36,900 bases of DNA, taken from Nitrososphaerota archaeon (lineage in GTDB: Archaea > Thermoproteota > Nitrososphaeria > Nitrososphaerales > Gagatemarchaeaceae). Positions 7,825-17,407 of this stretch are shown here, in pieces. Position numbers and translations under genes: made by a program. Every line of letters starts with the position of its first letter. Position 1 is the first letter of the stretch. The notes beneath the pieces were generated by a model. That model was not told the origin of the DNA. It did no database searches and worked only from the letters and a program-made list of their open reading frames with translations. The stretch is from NCBI GenBank assembly GCA_027886975.1, contig JAPCJK010000007.1, forward strand, positions 1 to 36,900, given 5' to 3'.

Positions 7825-9297
7825 GTGTCCGAGTCAAAAGCCATCGCCAGGGTTCTGTCGTCGGGCTACATGCTGGATGCAAAAGCGTTCGAAATGATCA
7901 GCCAACTCCCTGACGGAGTAGATGCTGAGGGCCTGGTAGAGAAGCTTCTCGAGCAGAAGGCCGGCATTCTTGGGGAGGGAAAAGTAATCACCGAAGGGGA
8001 TGTAGCAAGGCTGATTCCCCAAGATCAGCCTGAGCAGCAGGAGACCCTGGTAGTCCATGACCCGGCGGAGCTCGAGGTAATCTCAGACCCCACCCAGGCA
8101 ATCGCCCCGGCACAGGGGGCCGAGGGGTTCGGCAGGCTCTTTCAAGACAGGTACGAAAGGCTCCTCTCAATCGTCAGAGAGAGACTCGACACCAAGAGCA
8201 GCACGTCTGTTTCTGCGACAAGGAACCTGGTTCCGGGGAAGAAAGTCAAGGTGGCCGGGCTCTTGTCCGACCGTTCGAGCAGGCGAGGCTTCGTCGAACT
8301 GAAGGTCGATGACCCGACGGGGACAATGAAGGTCGTATGCCAGGACAAGGTCGTAGAGAAGGCCGCCCTTGAGGCGCCGCTGGACAGCATGGTGGTGGTC
8401 GAGGTTTCGAAGGGAAGGTCTGGCCAACTGTTCACCGATTCAGTCATCCTACCCGACGTCCCCGGGCGGAAGGCCGTGGCCTCTTCCCACAGGGTCTACG
8501 CAATCTTGCTTTCTGACCTTCACATAGGCAGCAGGATGTTCCTGGCAGACGACTTCCACCGTTTCCTGCAATGGCTCAATGGGGGGCTCGGGGACAAGGA
8601 CGTGGTCAACAGGGTGAAGTATCTCGTCATAGCCGGAGACCTGGTGGACGGGGTCGGCGTGTACCCCGGACAGGAGTTCCAGCTGGCTGAGAGGGACCCC
8701 AAGAAACAGTACGAGATGGCGGCCGAACTGCTGAGGCAAGTGCCGGGGCATATCCAGATTGTAGTGTCGCCAGGGAACCACGATGCGGTCAGGCAGGCGC
8801 TGCCGCAGCCGGCGGTGTCGGTCGACATGGCGGAGGGGTTGTACTCCATGGAAAACTTGCGCTGGGTAGGCGACCCTGCATACATCAAACTGCATGGTGT
8901 GACGTTCCTCGTCTATCACGGCAAGAGCCTCGACGATGTGATTGCTACCACACCAAACCTGGCTTACGACAGGCCCACCGAGGCGATGAAACTGCTGCTG
9001 AGAGCGCGGCATCTGTCCCCGACTTATGGGAAGCGGACCGCACTTTCCCCGGAGATACGTGACTACATGGTTGTGGACCGGGTCCCGGACGTCTTCCATG
9101 TTGGCCATGTGCACACCTACGGCGAGCTCTCCTACCGGGGCACACTCCTCGTCAACTCTGGGACGTGGCAAGCCCAGACCAACTTCCAGTCCAACATGGG
9201 CCTGGAACCCACGCCGAGCATAGTCCCTGTCATTGACCTCTCCACGCTGAAGACCGTGAGGCGCAACTTCGGCGCGGCCGGATTTCCCGCTTCCTAG
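7825..9297 (+). CDS. polB: DNA polymerase D small subunit DP1 (exonuclease)
   Basis: Proofreading subunit of the archaeal replicative polymerase D. 490 residues. A helical N-terminal region (1-75) and a low-complexity linker lead to an OB fold (about 125-220, VPGKKVKVAGLLSDRSSRRG) and a calcineurin-like phosphodiesterase domain. All metal motifs are present: DLHIGS (about 231), AGDLVDG (about 271), SPGNHDAVR (about 316), YHGKSLD, and HVGHVHTYG (about 424), so the 3'-5' exonuclease should be active. It ends tail to tail with orc1/cdc6, and the two genes share the palindromic CTAG as stop codon. DP2 is in the same window at 32 kb. Confidence 0.95.
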   Translation: MSESKAIARVLSSGYMLDAKAFEMISQLPDGVDAEGLVEKLLEQKAGILGEGKVITEGDVARLIPQDQPEQQETLVVHDPAELEVISDPTQAIAPAQGAEGFGRLFQDRYERLLSIVRERLDTKSSTSVSATRNLVPGKKVKVAGLLSDRSSRRGFVELKVDDPTGTMKVVCQDKVVEKAALEAPLDSMVVVEVSKGRSGQLFTDSVILPDVPGRKAVASSHRVYAILLSDLHIGSRMFLADDFHRFLQWLNGGLGDKDVVNRVKYLVIAGDLVDGVGVYPGQEFQLAERDPKKQYEMAAELLRQVPGHIQIVVSPGNHDAVRQALPQPAVSVDMAEGLYSMENLRWVGDPAYIKLHGVTFLVYHGKSLDDVIATTPNLAYDRPTEAMKLLLRARHLSPTYGKRTALSPEIRDYMVVDRVPDVFHVGHVHTYGELSYRGTLLVNSGTWQAQTNFQSNMGLEPTPSIVPVIDLSTLKTVRRNFGAAGFPAS

Positions 9298-10484
9298 TTC
9301 GCAGCGCCGAACGTAGTGTCTTCGGAAAACGTCTTCTCGAGCGCATCCTTCCCTATCAGGAGTTGAATCTTCTTGGTCCGCCCTCGCCTTCCCTTGCTTA
9401 CAACCGAGGCCTCGACAAGGCCCAGAAGGTCGAGGTCTCCTAGGATTCCGCTCATCCGTCTCTGAGTGAGGGTCTCGACGCCGATCTTCTTGCATAGGTT
9501 GCTGTAGGCTATGTAGAGCTCGCCCGTGTTTGTCCCCCCGTTGAACATCGAGACTGCGAGGAGGATGGCCTTGTTCTGGACTGGGAGGGAACGTATCGCC
9601 TCGTCCACCCTGTCGTGCTCCATCTTGTCAGAGGCCCTCCTGATGCAGGATTCGTCGATCTCGCTGAGGCCCTCTCTCTCTGCGACCTCTCCGGCGATCC
9701 TAAGCAGGTCGATGGCCCTCCTCGCGTCACCGTGCTCCGACCCGGCTATGGCCGCGCACATGTTGATCGCTGCTGATGAAGCGACCGAGGGCCTGAACGC
9801 CATCTTTGCCCGCTCGGTCAGGATTTCTCTAAGCTCGTCGACCGTATAGGGCGGGAACACGAGTTCTTCTTCGCTGAGACTGCTGAGCACCCGGGGGTCG
9901 AGGCCCTCCTTGAACTTCAGGTCGTTCGATATGCCGACGAGCGCCAAGAAACCCGGGGCGAGTCGCTCGCCTGAGCGGGTGAAGGCATAGAGGATGTCAT
10001 CACCGAAGAGTTTTACGAGGTAATCAATTTCATCGAGGACGAGAACCACCTTCTTCTTGTTGGATTTGATATTGTCTGAGATTCTGTCGACGACCTCTCC
10101 GATCGCCAGCCCAGTCAGAGGTATCTGCTTCTCCTTCCTCAGGTCAAGGAACTTCGCGAAGTCCGCGAGCGTCCTGTATTCACCGTCGGCCAGCCTGGTG
10201 TTGACGTACGCCAGGATTAGGTCGGAGGTATTGGCTTCGGCCTTCAGCTTTGACAGCACATAGTTGGTTACGGCCGTCTTTCCCGTCCCTGTCTTCCCGT
10301 AGAGAAGGAGGTTGGAAGGTTTGGAGCCGCGGAGTATCGGGGCAAGGACCTGAGCGATGGCCTTGGTCTGGGCGTCGCGGAAAGGGAGGGTCGCAGGCAC
10401 ATACTCGGGCCTCAGGGCCTCGCGGTTGACGAACAGGGGCCTCCCCTCCTTGGCCCTGCGGAAAATCTCGTCTATCCCGGACAA
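9294..10484 (-). CDS. cdc6: Orc1/Cdc6 replication initiator ATPase
   Basis: Binds origin recognition boxes and loads the MCM helicase. 396 residues, normal size. Walker A GKTGTGKT (63-70), Walker B VVLVLDEID (Asp151-Glu152), sensor 1 region LVGISND, sensor 2 region GDARRAIDLLR, and a C-terminal winged helix (LCKKIGVETLTQRRMSGILGDLDLLGLV). The start is TTG at 10484; a TATA-like TTATCTA lies about 25 bases upstream, and an ORB-like CAGTGGAAAC sits between box and start, suggesting autoregulation. ORB boxes also occur in the non-coding region at 30 kb. Confidence 0.95.
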   Translation of the reverse strand: MSGIDEIFRRAKEGRPLFVNREALRPEYVPATLPFRDAQTKAIAQVLAPILRGSKPSNLLLYGKTGTGKTAVTNYVLSKLKAEANTSDLILAYVNTRLADGEYRTLADFAKFLDLRKEKQIPLTGLAIGEVVDRISDNIKSNKKKVVLVLDEIDYLVKLFGDDILYAFTRSGERLAPGFLALVGISNDLKFKEGLDPRVLSSLSEEELVFPPYTVDELREILTERAKMAFRPSVASSAAINMCAAIAGSEHGDARRAIDLLRIAGEVAEREGLSEIDESCIRRASDKMEHDRVDEAIRSLPVQNKAILLAVSMFNGGTNTGELYIAYSNLCKKIGVETLTQRRMSGILGDLDLLGLVEASVVSKGRRGRTKKIQLLIGKDALEKTFSEDTTFGAAN

Positions 10485-10517: not shown

Positions 10518-10665
10518 GTGTTGCGGGGGATTGGGAGTTGGCCCCGCGGCAACCCTCCGATATCGTGAGGAGTTATGCGCCGTTGACTATGGATATCCAC
10601 GACGCCATGATACATTGTTGATGAAAAGGGGGAACTACTGATTCTGTCATGGCTGACAACCGCGC

Positions 10666-10797
10666 ATGAGCATCGACATCAAAATCCGCATAGGACTGTT
10701 GCTCGTCTCGATGGCCATCTCCGCGTTCGCGGCCTTGGCCACGACCCACGGCCTGTACGTTGGGTTCCTGGACGGCATCGGCGGTTCGGGCCACTAG
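10666..10797 (+). CDS. 43-residue single-TM peptide, copy 1
   Basis: Too short for the ORF track. It reads MSIDIKIRIGLLLVSMAIS..., one hydrophobic helix (residues 9-26), then a polar end with GIGGSGH. It resembles the 40-residue peptide at 14788-14910: both share M(S/T)(I/L)DxKIRxG, a TM segment with FAxL, and an IGGxG tail. Both also converge on the 3' end of a double-HTH regulator gene (gap here 16 bases). The shared sequence and shared context are the evidence that it is a real gene. The basic KIR before the helix predicts N-terminus in. Function unknown; a membrane partner or signal for the regulator is possible. No clear TATA box was seen. Confidence 0.6.
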   Translation: MSIDIKIRIGLLLVSMAISAFAALATTHGLYVGFLDGIGGSGH

Positions 10798-10813
10798 ACT
10801 GGGTGGCCCTTTC

Positions 10814-11941
10814 CTATTTTTCGACCAGGGCCGCAGCTTTGGACAAGGCTGCTTCCATACTCCCGACGTCGAACCTCCAGCTGTCATGGTCGAACATGTG
10901 ATGCGGTATCGTGTAGAGATAGGCCTCGTTGGGTTTTATGAAACTCGTCTCGAGGTTCGAGTCCAACTCTCCCACTTCGTCGTTCAAGTAGCTGAATGTA
11001 GGTATCAAGTCATAGACCGGCACGTGTAATGTGGCGATGTAAGTGCCGTCTTTGAGCAGGTCTTCGGCCCACAGATATGGGATCTTGCTGACAGCCCGTT
11101 GGACCCTCGTGAATTCGCCCTGGCTCAGGTTCCTGAAGGTCAGCCTGGTCGTGTCGACCGAATGGATAGGCTTCTTCTCGATGTCCCTGGTCCACCTAAC
11201 AAAGAACGAAGGCACCATCTTTTCCTTCATCACGTGGGACCGGTAATGGTACTCGAGGGTCTTCCCGTGGACCTTCTGGTTTCGGGCGATGCCCACAGTG
11301 TGCTGCATGGCGTCTTTCTGGAGCTCTTTGATCAGAAGAAGGTCATAGTAGTCAGGTAGGGCTCCAGAGGCTTGCCGCTCGGCCTGCAAGGAAGTCCGGC
11401 CCTGGCTCGTAACCTTGTTCCATTCGACCTCCCATCTGCCTGAGCGGAAGTTGAAGAACCTTGGATTCATCGGCGGGTGCCTGCTTACGAGTGCCTCCTC
11501 CAGGGAGAACCCAGTCAGAATCTTGTTATCAACGAGGTGGGAAAGAAGAGTTCGGAATTCTTCCGTCGTCCCGACCGGGAGGCTGAATATGGCAAGGAAG
11601 CGCCCCTGTGGGAGGACCTTGGTGTAGTAGGTCAGGTATCCCACTCGGTTCATTGCGTCCAGCAGTTTGGTCGCCGAGCTGTAATAGGGCCCCGAAAAAT
11701 GCAGGGTTGCCCAGTGTTGGACTAGGCCGATCTTTCGGTGGTCAACCTCTGCGTGAAATTTGAACCCTAGTCTGGCCAGCCTCTTCTTGATTTGATACCT
11801 GACCGTTTCCTGATGTGCTCCGGTCAGGCGTGCAATCTGTGCGATGTTCCGCGGACCAACGGAACCGATGGCCGTGATTATTCGTGCCTCCAGGTCCGGG
11901 AACTCGGCTTTGAAAGACTGAACAGACTTGGTGCGAGCCAA
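10814..11941 (-). CDS. Double-HTH transcription regulator, paralog 1
   Basis: 375 residues. An N-terminal Lrp/AsnC-like HTH (NIAQIARLTGAHQETVRYQI, about 32-51) is followed by an alpha/beta sensing region (LLDAMNRVGYLTYYTKVLPQG). A second HTH lies in the middle (LLLIKELQKDAMQHTVGIARNQKVHGKTLEYHY, about 203-235), and a second alpha/beta region follows with VQRAVSKIPYLW. The two halves look like an internal duplication of HTH plus ligand domain. It is clearly homologous to the proteins at 14942-16117 and 16280-17407. Start is TTG with TTAATTA about 25 bases upstream. No DNA target can be read from its sequence. Confidence 0.8.
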   Translation of the reverse strand: MARTKSVQSFKAEFPDLEARIITAIGSVGPRNIAQIARLTGAHQETVRYQIKKRLARLGFKFHAEVDHRKIGLVQHWATLHFSGPYYSSATKLLDAMNRVGYLTYYTKVLPQGRFLAIFSLPVGTTEEFRTLLSHLVDNKILTGFSLEEALVSRHPPMNPRFFNFRSGRWEVEWNKVTSQGRTSLQAERQASGALPDYYDLLLIKELQKDAMQHTVGIARNQKVHGKTLEYHYRSHVMKEKMVPSFFVRWTRDIEKKPIHSVDTTRLTFRNLSQGEFTRVQRAVSKIPYLWAEDLLKDGTYIATLHVPVYDLIPTFSYLNDEVGELDSNLETSFIKPNEAYLYTIPHHMFDHDSWRFDVGSMEAALSKAAALVEK

Positions 11942-11964
11942 GCCTTTCGGATGAGCAAAATCGA

Positions 11965-11974
11965 GTAATTAAGC
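11965..11974 (-). promoter_or_regulatory. TATA box for double-HTH regulator 1
   Basis: GCTTAATTAC on the minus strand is centred 27 bases before the TTG start at 11941. Confidence 0.5.
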
Positions 11975-12152
11975 ATGCCATGTTTCGATTCCGGTGAAAC
12001 TTTGGCCTGGACAACAAAAATCAGAAGGGATCGCTGTTTTCTCAGACATTCATGGAAACTGCGTTGCATTCGACAGTGTTCTCTCGGATATTGAGAAACA
12101 GTCTGTTGATGGGACGGTATGCCTTAGTTAGTGTCAAAATTGGGAGAGCCGC

Positions 12153-13340
12153 CTACCCCGCTGGGGTGGACGGCTTGCTTATGCGATGTCTCGCTACCAC
12201 AATTGCTGCCCCTACGACGACGACAGCCAAGAGCACGAACGCGACTGTTGCTGCGTCCAAGCCGAAGAATCCTGCTTGGCTGCTTGGGAGTGCAATGCCA
12301 CCTGGGTTTGCTTGCTGGATTGCCGGAATCTGAGAGGGTAGGTAGTACTGGCCTGAACCCTGCGTGCCCGAATTCGTTGCTGCCAATGAAGGCATGCCGT
12401 TGGGCTGGCTTGCCACAGTCGCGGACGGTGCTCCGCCGACATAGGCTTGTTTGGAGTCGACGCCCATGGGCATCACCCAGTAGTTGGGTTGCTGGTAGTG
12501 GAGAGTCAGGCTGATGCTGCTCTGCGGAGGCAATAGGAGACCCGAGCCCGACAGTCCGACGTACGTAGGCTGCCAGTAGACGGTGACGTTGACCTTCTCG
12601 CCTCCAACGGTCGTTTGGATGATTTTCTGGCCCTCTGGTATTGGGATTGAGACCCACTTCCAGGCTGTGACTACGGTCGGGGCAGAAGGTAAGACGAGAT
12701 GGGCGACGCCGCTGCTGTCGGTCTGTGCACCCATGCGGATTGCCGAGTTCTGCCACCACCAGTAGTACTCGCCGACAACCGAAGCGTAGACGGAAGCGTC
12801 TGCCGCGGCTGTTCCATTGACGTAGGACACCTTGACGTTGACATCAGTGGTTGGGAGTGCCGAGACATTCTTCATTTCGATGTTGACTGTCTGTGAACCC
12901 GAGATGTTTGTGATGGCATAGCCGTATTCAGATGATTGAGGATAGCACGCGATGGGCATCATGGCTGACCCGTTGGACTTGATCGCGGGTGAGGCGCTGC
13001 CAGACCCCTGGGCTGCACCACCGGCCATCATTGGACATGGGTACTTCATGAGTGAGTTGAAGCTGGTTGAACTGACAGTGAACAGGTATCCACCTGACGG
13101 GAGCTCGAAGCCCGCCGCCGGGTAGGGCGTCTGATTCGACGCGATGAGGCTCCCGGTGAGGTTGTAGGCCGCGAACTGGAAGCCGTTTGACTGGCTGAAG
13201 GACGAAGTGGCGAAGACTTGGACGTTGTTGAAGGACACTTTTGCCGAAGCGGGCTGCGCCAGGAAGGCGGTCCCCGCAAGGAGGAGCGCCATGGAGAGGA
13301 GCAAAGCCCTGGATTTGGCTTTTATTTCGTTGGTTGACAT
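12153..13340 (-). CDS. Secreted, C-terminally anchored surface protein
   Basis: 395 residues. A signal peptide (KAKSRALLLSMALLLAGTAFLA, cleavage near ASA-KV at about 33) leads to a Ser/Thr/Gly-rich extracellular region with many N-x-S/T sites. Two internal parts look like Ig/carboxypeptidase-regulatory beta repeats (VNVKVSYVNGTAAADASVYA; VNVTVYWQPTYVGLSG). A Gly/Ser/Gln-rich spacer (about 310-355) precedes a C-terminal TM helix (TVAFVLLAVVVVGAAIVVA) and a short basic tail. That is the architecture of a membrane-anchored cell-surface protein. It is strongly aromatic around EYYWWWQN. No catalytic motif is visible. The nearest gene upstream is a divergent nitroreductase. Confidence 0.75.
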   Translation of the reverse strand: MSTNEIKAKSRALLLSMALLLAGTAFLAQPASAKVSFNNVQVFATSSFSQSNGFQFAAYNLTGSLIASNQTPYPAAGFELPSGGYLFTVSSTSFNSLMKYPCPMMAGGAAQGSGSASPAIKSNGSAMMPIACYPQSSEYGYAITNISGSQTVNIEMKNVSALPTTDVNVKVSYVNGTAAADASVYASVVGEYYWWWQNSAIRMGAQTDSSGVAHLVLPSAPTVVTAWKWVSIPIPEGQKIIQTTVGGEKVNVTVYWQPTYVGLSGSGLLLPPQSSISLTLHYQQPNYWVMPMGVDSKQAYVGGAPSATVASQPNGMPSLAATNSGTQGSGQYYLPSQIPAIQQANPGGIALPSSQAGFFGLDAATVAFVLLAVVVVGAAIVVARHRISKPSTPAG

Positions 13341-13486
13341 CTTTCTCGGTGAGGGGTAGGTAGCACATGGGATAGTCCTATTGTGCAGAACGGGTGTTCG
13401 AAAGGCTAGAACGGTGGGTATTCTCTAGATGTGCACTATGTAGTATGTCGACCTGCTTCAATCGTCCCGCAAGCGATAACAAACCC

Positions 13487-14095
13487 ATGGACACTCGGAA
13501 CGGCATGGAGTTGCAGAAGGCAGTACACAAGCGTCGCATGGTCAGGCACTTCACAGGTGAACCTGTCCCTGCGGAGACTGTCAACAAGATCCTAGAATTG
13601 GCTCAGCACGCTCCGAGCGCCGGGTTCAGTCAAGGGAGCGCCTACGTGGTGGTTACTGATGCGGGGCTCAAGAAGAAGGTCGCAAAACTACAGGGAGAAG
13701 AGGATTATGGCGCGGCCGGTTTTCACAGGTGGATTTCCGAGGCGCCAATCGCCATCGTCGCTTGCGTGAGCGAAAAATTGTACCACGACAGATATAATGA
13801 ACCCGACAAGCTGAACGAGGAAGGCAAAGAAATCGAGTGGCCGACTCCCTACTGGTATTTCGACATAGGGGCGGGCTCCTTGCTCGTCCTTCTGGGTGCG
13901 GTTGACGCCGAGCTCGCAGCCGCGTTTACTGGAGTGTTCGACGTCCAGGGAATGAAGGATCTTCTAGGCATCCCGGCTCATTTCCATCCTGTCGGCGTCA
14001 TTTCGATTGGGCATGGGGCGGAGGATGTGAAGTCTCCTTCGCTTAAGCGTGGAAGACGCAAGTGGGCCGACGTTGTCCATTACCAGAAATGGTAA
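13487..14095 (+). CDS. Nitroreductase-family flavoprotein
   Basis: Likely FMN-dependent NAD(P)H oxidoreductase. From the ATG at 13487 it has 202 residues. Family features: KAVHKRRMVRHFTGEPVPAETVNKILELAQHAPSAG, where the RRMVRxF arginines bind FMN phosphate and HAPSAG is the conserved helix cap; LLVLLGAVDAELAAAF in the dimer helix; and LLGIPAHFHPVGVISIGH, the usual GIP...PVGVISIG strand. The substrate is unknown. The track ORF starts at 13394, but the added residues show no family match. An ATG at 13505 (MELQKAV) is also possible. Confidence 0.85.
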   Translation: MDTRNGMELQKAVHKRRMVRHFTGEPVPAETVNKILELAQHAPSAGFSQGSAYVVVTDAGLKKKVAKLQGEEDYGAAGFHRWISEAPIAIVACVSEKLYHDRYNEPDKLNEEGKEIEWPTPYWYFDIGAGSLLVLLGAVDAELAAAFTGVFDVQGMKDLLGIPAHFHPVGVISIGHGAEDVKSPSLKRGRRKWADVVHYQKW

Positions 14096-14134
14096 GACAA
14101 CACGGCGAGGCCGTCTAGCATCGTCCCAGTTGTT

Positions 14135-14521
14135 CTAATTCGTTGCCAATGGCGGACATCCTAATTGGTAGTGGTGCATCAGGAGTCCTTCATAGGGCGG
14201 ACTCGGCCAGTTGCCAGCCCCGATTCCGAAAACCACGCAACTCAGGGATTCCGTCGCGGGGAGCCTCAGAAACGCGAGTTGGTCTGAGCCGTGTGTGGTT
14301 ATGGGAATCACAGGAACGAACAAGAAGACGAACAGAAACGCGGCCAGAATGACAATGGCTACAATGGTGTTTCGTCGTTTCATCCTGCTTGATCGTGCGA
14401 CCTGGCGTACTGAATCAGGGTTAGCCACTTTTTGCTCGCCTTCTCCCTCGGTCGCTTTGTCGCTTGCATGAATTATTTCTTCAGGTTCTTCTGGATTCTG
14501 GGTATTTTCTTCTTGAGTCAC
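14135..14521 (-). CDS. Single-TM protein with small ectodomain
   Basis: 128 residues from a GTG. An acidic N-terminal tail (about 1-30, rich in Glu) and a basic stretch (SSRMKRRN) precede one TM helix (TIVAIVILAAFLFVFLFVPVIPI). A ~60-residue outside domain follows, with two cysteines (LSCVVFG, LGCPP) that could form a disulfide. The helix end FLFVPVIPITT resembles FVLFIPVVPET in the protein at 21856-22131. No function recognised. Confidence 0.55.
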   Translation of the reverse strand: MTQEENTQNPEEPEEIIHASDKATEGEGEQKVANPDSVRQVARSSRMKRRNTIVAIVILAAFLFVFLFVPVIPITTHGSDQLAFLRLPATESLSCVVFGIGAGNWPSPPYEGLLMHHYQLGCPPLATN

Positions 14522-14753
14522 AAGCCCACTTACATGAGAGGAGACTTCCTCCCGAGCAGAATGCCATCAGAAATCACATAGGCACCGAGCATGACCTTGG
14601 AGTCTGAATCTAGTTGTCAGATATCGAGAAGGGATGAAATTGTCAAGGTTCGTGGGGCTTGCCTCGCTATGGACTTGGGTAGCCAATAGGATTCCTGCGT
14701 CCGTCTTTAGAATTCGCATGGATTAGAGATGGCCTAATTGGGCACTTGCTTAA

Positions 14754-14761
14754 CCTTATTT
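14754..14761 (+). promoter_or_regulatory. TATA-like box for peptide copy 2
   Basis: CCTTATTT lies about 27 bases upstream of the ATG at 14788, compatible with leaderless expression. Confidence 0.4.
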
Positions 14762-14787
14762 GCCGGCCGTTCGATACTGCAGGTATC

Positions 14788-14910
14788 ATGACCTTGGATG
14801 AGAAGATCAGATTCGGGATGGTCGCCTTGAGTGGCGCGAGCCTAGTGTTCGCATCGCTAGGGGTGCACGTCAACCCGCTGACAATTATCGGCGGGGCAGG
14901 AACGACTTAG
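14788..14910 (+). CDS. 40-residue single-TM peptide, copy 2
   Basis: Too short for the ORF track. It reads MTLDEKIRFGMVALSGASLV..., then FASLGVHV and an IIGGAGTT tail: a short charged head, one hydrophobic helix and a glycine-rich end. It matches the peptide at 10666-10797 in length, head (DxKIRxG), the FAxL within the helix and the IGGxG tail. Like that copy it converges on a double-HTH regulator (gap 31 bases). A TATA-like box at the right distance supports expression. Function unknown. Confidence 0.62.
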   Translation: MTLDEKIRFGMVALSGASLVFASLGVHVNPLTIIGGAGTT

Positions 14911-14941
14911 GGGCAAGCTAGAGTCGGGGCATCACCCGGCT

Positions 14942-16117
14942 TCAGCTTGTCATCCCCTTTATCTCCAGCGCAAGTCTTTCGAACTTGCTTAACAGTTCCA
15001 TTTGGTCAAACTTCCATTTCTTGGCTTCTTGGTCGTAGAGGCTGGGTGAGATTGAAAACCTCAACGCGTTAGCTTGGTCCATGAAGTGCCAAGAAGCTTT
15101 CTGTCGAACTGGCGATGTGACATCCTTCACGAATGATAACGCTTCGGTCATCGTTTCCATCGGGAAGGCGATTTGGGCAAAATAGTTCTGGCCTCCAGCC
15201 TCGAACCAGACGAATGGTAATTGATTGACTTTCGTCATCAGCTCCATCCTCTCGGTCTCAGTCACGCCGCTTACCATCAACTCGAGCCACATGTACCTGT
15301 GTCTCCGGTGAAGTGCCCTCTCTAACTTCGGGTCGTATCGCGTCCCTGTCCAATTGACCATATACCCTTTGAGCAACCCATTTCCAATTATGTGCTTGCG
15401 ATAGTGCCAAGTCAAGGTCTTGTAATTCACTTGAATCTTATCTCCAATTTCAGTTAAGGAAGCGCTAGGATCTATCTGGAGTTGCTCGATTATCTTCAGG
15501 TCAGTCGAGTCGATCTTGGCTTTGGCAGAAGGAGAGTAGGCAAAAGAGCCAGGATCTAACTTGGGCTTCGACGCCCAGTCGTATTGCCAAGCGTCGTGCT
15601 CGAAGTCGTAAATTTCCGAATGCATTGGAACCACCCTTGCCCATTCGAAAGGAACTGCGTGGATTGAACTGAACACTCCTTTCTGCTTGAGAGTGTGCAT
15701 GAACCGAATCCAGTCACTCGAGTGCTCCTGAGGAACATTTGCGTGAATAGAGTACAGGTCCTCAGGAAGGGCCTTCATGAAGCTGGTAAGGTAACACAGT
15801 TCGTTCATCGCCATCAGTATTGCATCCCCATAGGGCCTGTAGTCCTCCGAAAATTCCGCGAATGCGATTACCCTCCTAAGACCCAACCTTTCGTGATTGG
15901 GGATTGCCGCCAAAGTGTAGCCTCTCTTCAGCAATCTTTCCTTGTACCAATATCTCGCCGTCTCCTTGTGAACTCCGAGTTCCCTTGCAATCTGAGTAAT
16001 CTGAGGCCCTTCCTTCGTAATCAGCTTGACAAGCTCAGCAATCTTGGAATTCGTGTCTTGGTTGTTGGGTGAACGTTCGGTCGGGCGTTCAGTTCTGGCG
16101 TTGGGCTCTAGAACCAT
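14942..16117 (-). CDS. Double-HTH transcription regulator, paralog 2
   Basis: 391 residues. A Ser/Asn-rich head leads to the first HTH (QITQIARELGVHKETARYWY, about 40-59) and a sensing region (AMNELCYLTSFMKALPEDLY). A second HTH is at about 205-240 (DLKIIEQLQIDPSASLTEIGDKIQVNYKTLTWHY), and a second sensing region follows with MTKVNQLPFVWFEAGG. It is much closer to paralog 3 (16280-17407), its divergent neighbour, than to paralog 1: both have MNxLCYLTxxxxxxP and LPF(V/I)W. The 160-bp divergent promoter region contains one copy of the 42-bp element. The peptide at 14788 converges on its end. Confidence 0.8.
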   Translation of the reverse strand: MVLEPNARTERPTERSPNNQDTNSKIAELVKLITKEGPQITQIARELGVHKETARYWYKERLLKRGYTLAAIPNHERLGLRRVIAFAEFSEDYRPYGDAILMAMNELCYLTSFMKALPEDLYSIHANVPQEHSSDWIRFMHTLKQKGVFSSIHAVPFEWARVVPMHSEIYDFEHDAWQYDWASKPKLDPGSFAYSPSAKAKIDSTDLKIIEQLQIDPSASLTEIGDKIQVNYKTLTWHYRKHIIGNGLLKGYMVNWTGTRYDPKLERALHRRHRYMWLELMVSGVTETERMELMTKVNQLPFVWFEAGGQNYFAQIAFPMETMTEALSFVKDVTSPVRQKASWHFMDQANALRFSISPSLYDQEAKKWKFDQMELLSKFERLALEIKGMTS

Positions 16118-16279: not shown

Positions 16280-17407
16280 TTGAAGCCTGACCTAAGAGAA
16301 AAACAGGCCAGACTAGCTACACTGATGCAGGAACGCGGGCCCAGGATCACGGAGATTGCAAGGAAGCTTGACGAGAGTCCGGAGACAGTCAGGTACTGGT
16401 TCAAGCACAACATTCTAGGCCGAAGAGGTGTTGCGTACCAAGCTGTTCTGAACTACGAGGGGCTGGGGTTCAAGAGAATTCATGCAGTCATAGACTTCGC
16501 CGACGACTACCTACCCCATGCCAAGGAAATCCTCATCTCGATGAACAGCCTCTGCTATCTGACAAATTACTTCCGGACCTTCCCGAGCGGCTACTACGTC
16601 ATCCTTCTGACGGTGCCCTCTCAGTTTGAGCGTCAGTATCGTCGGCTGCTCGCGGACATGCAGGAGGTTGGCATCTTCCGTCTTTTGCAGGTCGACGGGT
16701 TAGACTGGATTCGAGCATCACCAATGAAGACGAAGTATTTCGATTTCGGCACGGGGAAGTGGGATTTCGATTGGTCCAAGATTGTCAGCGAAAAGAAATC
16801 GGTTGCTCCCAAGTTGAATCCGAGAGGCCTCGTTCGGTTCGACCGTGAAGACCTTCTGATACTCCAGAAGCTCCAGGTGGACGCTACGAAATCGCTCGGT
16901 AAGATTTCGCGTGAGCTGAAAATACCCTATCCCCAAGTCTACAATCATTTTGGCCATATTACCGATGCAGGGCAGGTCCTTCTTTACAGGATTAATTGGC
17001 CAGCTACTGGACCGAGAAGCCAAGAAGACCTGAAGGCGTGGCAACAGCAGCACGCCCACATGGGGATACAGTTCATTGTAAGAAGTTCGACTGAGTCCGA
17101 ACAACGTGAGCTTATGACCAAGATGGACCGGTTGCCCTTCATCTGGAGCAACGGGGTGGGCGAAGGAATTTTCTACTCGGAATTCACTGTGCCGCTCGAG
17201 TATTACTCAGAAACATTCCAGTACCTCGCTCAAGCGCTTCTCGACTCGAGGGGAAGAACTGAGTACTTCATAGGCGATCAAATCAACGCCCTTTCGTTCA
17301 CCGTCCCAACACGTCTTTACGACAAGGAAACTGAAGCCTGGACGAACAACGCGGATGAGGCCCTTACGAAGTTCAAGAACCTCGTCTTGACGCTCAACGG
17401 CAGTTAG
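16280..17407 (+). CDS. Double-HTH transcription regulator, paralog 3
   Basis: 375 residues. First HTH RITEIARKLDESPETVRYWF (about 20-39); sensing region SMNSLCYLTNYFRTFPSGYYVILL; second HTH about 194-228 (DLLILQKLQVDATKSLGKISRELKIPYPQVYNHF); second sensing region MTKMDRLPFIWSNGVGEG. It is paralogous to the other two regulators. The start is TTG at 16280, overlapping the stop of a 9-codon upstream frame (ATG 16254, TGA 16281-16283) by TTGA. If transcription starts at that ATG, as the TATA box predicts, the regulator would be translated by coupling. Copy A of the 42-bp element sits directly in its promoter, so autoregulation is likely. Confidence 0.8.
   Translation: MKPDLREKQARLATLMQERGPRITEIARKLDESPETVRYWFKHNILGRRGVAYQAVLNYEGLGFKRIHAVIDFADDYLPHAKEILISMNSLCYLTNYFRTFPSGYYVILLTVPSQFERQYRRLLADMQEVGIFRLLQVDGLDWIRASPMKTKYFDFGTGKWDFDWSKIVSEKKSVAPKLNPRGLVRFDREDLLILQKLQVDATKSLGKISRELKIPYPQVYNHFGHITDAGQVLLYRINWPATGPRSQEDLKAWQQQHAHMGIQFIVRSSTESEQRELMTKMDRLPFIWSNGVGEGIFYSEFTVPLEYYSETFQYLAQALLDSRGRTEYFIGDQINALSFTVPTRLYDKETEAWTNNADEALTKFKNLVLTLNGS

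Follow-up and report, generated by a model that had tools for sequence, protein, structure and literature searches.

Two very short open reading frames (ORFs) in a 36,900-nucleotide stretch of DNA from a Nitrososphaerota archaeon (contig JAPCJK010000007.1, positions 1 to 36,900; the whole stretch is referred to below as the window) each lie tail to tail with a gene for a regulator carrying two helix-turn-helix (HTH) domains. This arrangement raises the question of whether such ORFs are genes at all and, if so, what a peptide of about 40 residues could be doing beside a regulator of this kind. The comparative analysis described here indicates that the peptides are almost certainly genuine genes, functionally tied to their regulators. 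It further suggests, with the balance standing about even, that each unit is a dedicated pair of peptide ligand and regulator which feeds back on the peptide gene.

Results

The short ORFs are conserved genes

Peptide gene 1 (positions 10666..10797, + strand) is of the P1 type and encodes 43 residues reading MSIDIKIRIGLLLVSMAISAFAALATTHGLYVGFLDGIGGSGH; peptide gene 2 (14788..14910, + strand) is of the P2 type and encodes 40 residues reading MTLDEKIRFGMVALSGASLVFASLGVHVNPLTIIGGAGTT. Peptide 1 consists of an N-terminal MSIDIKIRIG, predicted to be cytoplasmic, one hydrophobic helix and a FLDGIGGSGH tail (10765..10794, + strand), while the tail of peptide 2, assigned from conservation of the tail motif, reads PLTIIGGAGTT (14875..14907, + strand). 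The original prediction had proposed both ORFs from the window alone; their positions and common motifs were verified, as were the gaps of 16 and 31 bases that separate them from the convergent regulator genes. The 3′ overlap which it had also mentioned is absent from the window, where peptide and regulator genes do not overlap. Neither peptide matched any model in Pfam, NCBIfam or PADLOC, and membership in a known peptide family was rejected on this basis.

A search for further homologs, proposed earlier as a test, was positive. Peptide 1 used as the sole query found matches, mostly clear, in 32 out of 61 related genomes. A hidden Markov model (HMM) built from 16 aligned peptides detected homologs in 43 of the 46 genomes of the window's family, a few of these being weak matches at chance level, and, beyond this family, in five others of the order (f6, f9, f14, f16 and f17). 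Five peptide/regulator pairs are present in the window's own genome. Most genomes compared were metagenome-assembled, several of them from groundwater and other sites; judging from isolate names, the window's family would correspond to group I.1c (Gagatemarchaeaceae) and the habitats would be acidic. Three matches (L022, L025 and L029) lay within large ORFs or had no regulator nearby and were set aside as due to chance. In a 398-genome sample of the phylum no member of the peptide family was found outside the window's genus, which indicates that the family is restricted to certain lineages of this order. A viral or mobile origin was considered and rejected, as no relatives were detected among IMG/VR viral contigs by a pattern search combined with tblastn.

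In total, 83 distinct peptide genes were collected. They are mostly 40 codons long and 81 start with ATG. Across 26 disjoint gene pairs the proportion of nonsynonymous differences (pN) was 242/2334 (0.10), compared with 365/831 (0.44) for synonymous differences (pS), so that the bias towards synonymous sites expected of coding sequence is present and the alignments indicate that the peptide genes are under purifying selection. Since the coding overlap with the regulator gene does not exceed a few bases in most pairs, it is the peptide that is constrained. Of 81 peptide genes, 47 have a TATA-like word beginning 29-33 bases ahead of their ATG, compared with 1.3% of background ATGs in the same DNA. 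This distance matches the spacing of a leaderless archaeal promoter; ahead of peptide gene 2 the predicted TATA-like box is CTTATTTG (14755..14762, + strand), approximately 26-33 bases before the ATG. These ORFs form a micropeptide family overlooked by annotation.

The peptides are paired with tandem Lrp-type regulators

The regulator genes convergent with peptides 1 and 2 are r1 (10814..11941, − strand) and r2 (14942..16117, − strand), respectively. An r2 paralogue, r3 (16280..17407, + strand), is divergent from r2 and has no peptide of its own: none was found in its 3′ slot. The regulators are 375-391 residues long and contain two modules, whereas an Lrp/AsnC chain normally has a single module and about 150 residues. 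Residues 202-230 of r2, in its second half, match the AsnC-type HTH model PF13404 with 30.3 bits, above the cut-off of 27; r1 and r3 match it below the cut-off, and the regulators otherwise match generic HTH models only. The AlphaFold2 model of r2 (predicted TM-score 0.84) contains an HTH followed by an alpha/beta domain twice, with strands and helices alternating after each HTH, and r1 is of the same family, with two HTH and two alpha/beta domains. Foldseek matched the r2 model to NirDL (best match, E 1.5e-9), ST1022, PH0061 and Lrp. Profile searches likewise returned Lrp-type proteins such as ST1022, and LrpA was also among the Lrp-like matches. The regulator is a tandem Lrp-type protein with no sign of enzymatic activity, active-site residues not having been compared.

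In the window's family a convergent tandem regulator stands beside 69 of 74 peptides. For the remaining five the contig breaks off on the side expected to hold the regulator, so every peptide with an intact flank (69/69) is paired. The converse was nearly as consistent: a peptide accompanies 65 of the 72 regulators with scores of 400 bits or more, and of the seven that lack one, three are r3-type paralogues next to r2. Regulators scoring below about 400 bits are mostly without a small ORF of this kind. Spacing in relatives varies from a 4-base overlap to about 350 bases. In family f9 the peptide and regulator genes are oriented head to head with a few hundred bases between them; the partnership has therefore outlived a rearrangement, and 3′ overlap is excluded as its basis. 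The block of peptide, r2 and r3 occurs three times, in nearly identical form, in the window's own genome (14788-17407, G000:C118 and G000:C109), and the three r2 peptides differ mainly in helix and tail. The earlier idea of a duplicated functional unit is strongly supported by the consistent pairing, by these three blocks and by recurrence of the pair in other families.

A more distant subgroup of tandem Lrp proteins (L138, L139, L140, L142 and L146), found in several families, has no peptides. Its genes adjoin those for a UbiA-like prenyltransferase, a polyprenyl-synthase-like protein and a KaiC/ArlH-like ATPase, as named by eye, which suggests a different conserved role.

The C-terminal tail is multiplied in variant precursors

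Conserved features of the peptides are an N-terminal [ST]x[DE]xK[IV]RxG, in which D4, K6, R8 and G10 are nearly invariant, one invariant glycine and a PL[DE]xIGG tail; the core of the helix is variable. All 83 peptides contain an 18-residue stretch with a mean hydropathy above 1.5, and AlphaFold2 modelled one helix at residues 3-23 and a loosely structured tail. As charged K6 and R8 precede the hydrophobic stretch and the tail is neutral or negative, the predicted topology is N-terminus in, C-terminus out. The position of G10 ahead of the hydrophobic stretch had suggested a class III (pilin-type) signal peptide. Position −2 of such signals is usually charged; here it is hydrophobic (R-[ILFYV]-G), which speaks against this candidate.

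Inspection of regulators without a detected peptide revealed variant precursors in the same convergent slot. The P3 subgroup has one to three GDPGGPGxPN-like tails: L170 carries a helix followed by three copies of GDPGGPGAPN, with changed residues between the units, L169 a helix and two copies of GDPGGPGEPN, L168 a helix and a single GGDPIGPGPPD, and L173, which starts with GTG, a helix and a single GEGIGPGGPH. Two further precursors are helix-less: L154 (G067:C87:49520-49636, − strand) reads MNNFADPIGGFGPSYSMEPIGGFGPSYTLEPIGGFGPSY and contains three copies of [DE]PIGGFGPSY, and L153 reads MGRPSRDPIGGAGPSLCPRA. Copies within a precursor differ by synonymous codons only, 4-7 between the three copies of GDPGGPG, 7 between the two, and 2-5 between the three copies of PIGGFGPSY, with zero nonsynonymous differences. 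Among 4632 small-ORF readings of the loci, these three distinct ORFs are the only ones to contain a repeated 9-mer.

In the regulator tree the helix-less forms L153 and L154 nest (SH-aLRT 100) in a clade where the remaining peptides combine a helix with an LDPIGGVGP or LDPTGPGP tail. This nesting indicates that the helix was lost while the tail was kept and multiplied. As the tail is intact in the tandem copies, it is most simply taken as the active part; the sequence pattern thus points to the C-terminal [DE]xIGGxG tail as what the peptide probably works through, and it is likely that this tail is what gets recognised. A repeated pheromone is also carried by the yeast alpha-factor precursor.

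These variants bear on the best surviving alternative, namely that the peptide is a membrane tether or sensor whose cytoplasmic MTLDEKIRxG end holds the regulator and whose outer tail senses a condition and releases it. The nearly invariant N-terminal residues, the universal hydrophobic stretch and the modelled helix would all suit such a device. Members that lack the helix and carry one tail copy or three, beside regulators of the same clade, could not function in this way, nor could P3 members, which lack the DxKIRxG end, and a tether has no need of tandem tails. We regard this explanation as unlikely. The original prediction had left sensor, tether and secreted signal side by side; tandem tails and helix-less variants favour a ligand or signal tail and disfavour a pure membrane tether.

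Each peptide class has its own upstream element

Each peptide class has a conserved element of its own, lying between about −60 and the TATA box. Peptide gene 1 is preceded by the operator- or promoter-like element TTGATGAAAAGGGGGAACTAC (10618..10638, + strand), which is conserved ahead of P1-type genes and in whole genomes occurs almost exclusively there. When whole genomes were searched for the P2-type CATGCATAGGCTCANTCTTAAAA with at most three mismatches, seven sites were found in seven genomes. All seven precede a peptide gene; the reversed CATGCATAGGCTCANTCTTAAAA gave zero matches in the same genomes. For the P1-type TTGATGAAAANGNGGAACTAG nine sites were found in eight whole genomes; seven precede a P1 peptide, and the two exceptions match only at three mismatches, a tolerance at which the reversed TTGATGAAAANGNGGAACTAG also gave a few matches. 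Upstream of all genes of the P3 subgroup lies TTAGTAAC...GCATA...TAATAT, close to the leaderless distance, and L153 and L154 have a common upstream element around CTAAGCTTAA.

The elements may be bound by the paired regulator, with CATGCATAGGCTCANTCTTAAAA / TTGATGAAAAGGNGGAACTAG as candidate sites. If they are, the peptide gene is the regulator's one strong target, as would fit a self-referring loop. Such an element would also be expected if the peptide were a small membrane protein with a job of its own, for example within a respiratory or transport complex, and the adjacent gene simply encoded its transcription factor. Single-helix subunits as small as this are common. An effector of this kind does not readily account for as many as five paralogous pairs in one genome, each including a separate regulator, or for multiplication of the tail and loss of the helix, and no third neighbour is constant across families. 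This explanation appears improbable, and somewhat more so than a tether.

Genomic surroundings of the two units

Peptide gene 1 is divergent from an orc1/cdc6 gene (9294-10484), itself adjoined by an apparent metallophosphoesterase resembling the small subunit of DNA polymerase D (7825-9297). The order cdc6, peptide, regulator is conserved in several species of the genus (L002-L007); in L150 (G009) cdc6 and the regulator are retained and the peptide is lost. Between the two units lies a gene for a large predicted surface protein (12153-13340) with a signal-like N-terminus, a C-terminal membrane helix and no Pfam match. A nitroreductase-family gene (PF00881; 13487-14095) is located upstream of peptide gene 2, and contig C118 ends in a similar nitroreductase-like reading frame, close to the second block.

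Discussion

The observations are best drawn together as a loop of peptide ligand and regulator. A leaderless gene would encode a precursor, about 40 residues long, in which a short, charged N-terminal part is followed by a single membrane helix (predicted N-terminus in, C-terminus out) and by a tail of 10-14 residues containing [DE]xIGGxG. The tail would probably be released, perhaps exported and taken up again, and would act as a ligand for which the neighbouring tandem Lrp-type protein serves as receptor. The receptor would control the peptide's own promoter through the specific site just upstream of the TATA box, and the result would be a self-referring signalling loop. We infer these steps, namely processing, an extracellular stage, binding of the tail by the regulator and binding of the element by the regulator, from comparison of sequences. 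Recognition of the tail by the regulator is probable, and the fold family to which the receptor belongs (Lrp, ST1022, LrpA) binds small ligands, which by analogy favours a ligand here too. That the tail travels outside the cell has a little less than an even chance. Peptide-binding ATP-binding cassette (ABC) proteins of family PF00496, four of which are encoded in the window's own genome and which are present in 37 of 41 relatives, could provide the route for its return.

A number of points weigh against such a loop. The N-terminal DxKIRxG is conserved as strongly as the tail, and the leader of a pheromone would need no such detail. The P3 tails (GDPGGPG) match the main family just loosely. 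Two precursors have neither membrane helix nor signal sequence, which leaves them no obvious way of export; the helix-less forms point to another export route or to a ligand acting inside the producing cell. One genome with a peptide, G001, an incomplete assembly, has no PF00496 match. Some factor other than the regulator might read the upstream element as part of the promoter, and a motif common to peptide and regulator promoters was rejected, none rising above background. Finally, the likeness to known bacterial signals discussed below is short and could be due to convergence or chance.

Two remaining explanations fare poorly. In a toxin-antitoxin-like system the peptide would be a membrane-damaging toxin restrained by the regulator, as its small size, hydrophobicity, DNA-binding neighbour and several copies per genome might suggest. 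The stable presence of the peptides across the family, the conserved soluble tail, the helix-less members and the lack of PADLOC matches argue against this; lone regulators occur, but no untruncated lone peptide was found. A type I system would have a toxic peptide and an antisense RNA antitoxin; the partner here is a conserved protein gene, divergent in f9. We consider a toxin very improbable. Antisense control, in which a small transcript would act by pairing to the regulator mRNA at its 3′ end, the peptide being incidental, had been raised by the original prediction and would fit convergent genes with very short gaps and some 4-base overlaps, but the divergent f9 pairs, gaps ranging from −4 to about 350 bases and selection on the amino acids leave it scarcely credible.

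Gram-positive bacteria and their phages are known to signal with peptides that act through a cytoplasmic regulator. The closest parallel to the loop proposed here is the SHP/Rgg type of the RRNPP family, in which a gene for a short hydrophobic peptide (SHP) adjoins that of its regulator in convergent or divergent orientation, several pairs may occur per genome, the active C-terminal peptide starts with Asp or Glu, is Ile-rich and ends in GG, and the peptide promoter is a main target (PMC3679016). The signals DIIIIVGG, DILIIVGG and ETIIIIGGG described there are strikingly resembled by archaeal tails such as LDIIGGSG and LEIIGGFG. Unlike the SHP/Rgg receptor with its C-terminal tetratricopeptide repeats (TPR), the archaeal receptor has an HTH and an alpha/beta domain twice and shares no homologous part with it; since it is not a TPR protein, the pair is not an RRNPP member. 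The archaeal precursor is also longer, and its tail may be tandemly repeated. In RRNPP systems the mature peptide re-enters the cell through an oligopeptide transporter and is bound by the receptor; for the archaeal peptide secretion and uptake are putative, with the PF00496 proteins as candidate carriers.

By its HMM and fold matches the receptor resembles Lrp/AsnC proteins such as ST1022 and LrpA, which combine an AsnC-type HTH with a RAM-type alpha/beta domain for ligand binding and oligomerization, but it differs from them in having two complete modules per chain and a dedicated peptide gene. The words 'tandem' and 'fused' are absent from a review of archaeal Lrp proteins (PMC2995911). Siroheme decarboxylase NirDL also has two Lrp-like modules per chain and, as noted, was the best fold match. 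The TM-score was 0.50-0.60 at 12% identity, no haem-pathway context was seen, and a PDB profile search gave no regulator match to NirDL at E<=1, the match being one of fold only.

Earlier archaeal quorum sensing comprises only three examples as counted in a 2025 paper, none with a peptide/regulator pair (PMC12240190). The carboxy-acyl-homoserine lactones (AHLs) of Methanosaeta and the disk-forming signal of Haloferax also serve cell-cell signalling, but these signals are small molecules or unknown. In agreement with the original prediction, which knew of no system of this form, no description of the present pair, in Archaea or otherwise, was found in the open-licence literature. Neither the pairing of components nor the type of receptor belongs to a described peptide-signal family; the mode of working is of a known kind. 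This may possibly be the first peptide signal system in Archaea. In its fullest form the proposal would be that Archaea have a peptide pheromone system of their own, in which the peptide is secreted and processed, the precursors of some species are multi-copy, the receptor is a tandem Lrp-type protein unrelated to known peptide-signal receptors, and several orthogonal pairs per genome act as separate channels; we advance it tentatively, as rather less probable than its contrary.

The operator-like element predicts which promoter to examine. Even without secretion, the pairs provide a clear-cut example of a micropeptide family and a novel means of gating Lrp-type regulators. If the tail is diffusible, the abundant uncultured Nitrososphaerota of soil and acid sediment would have a genetically encoded language that is predictable and can be synthesized.

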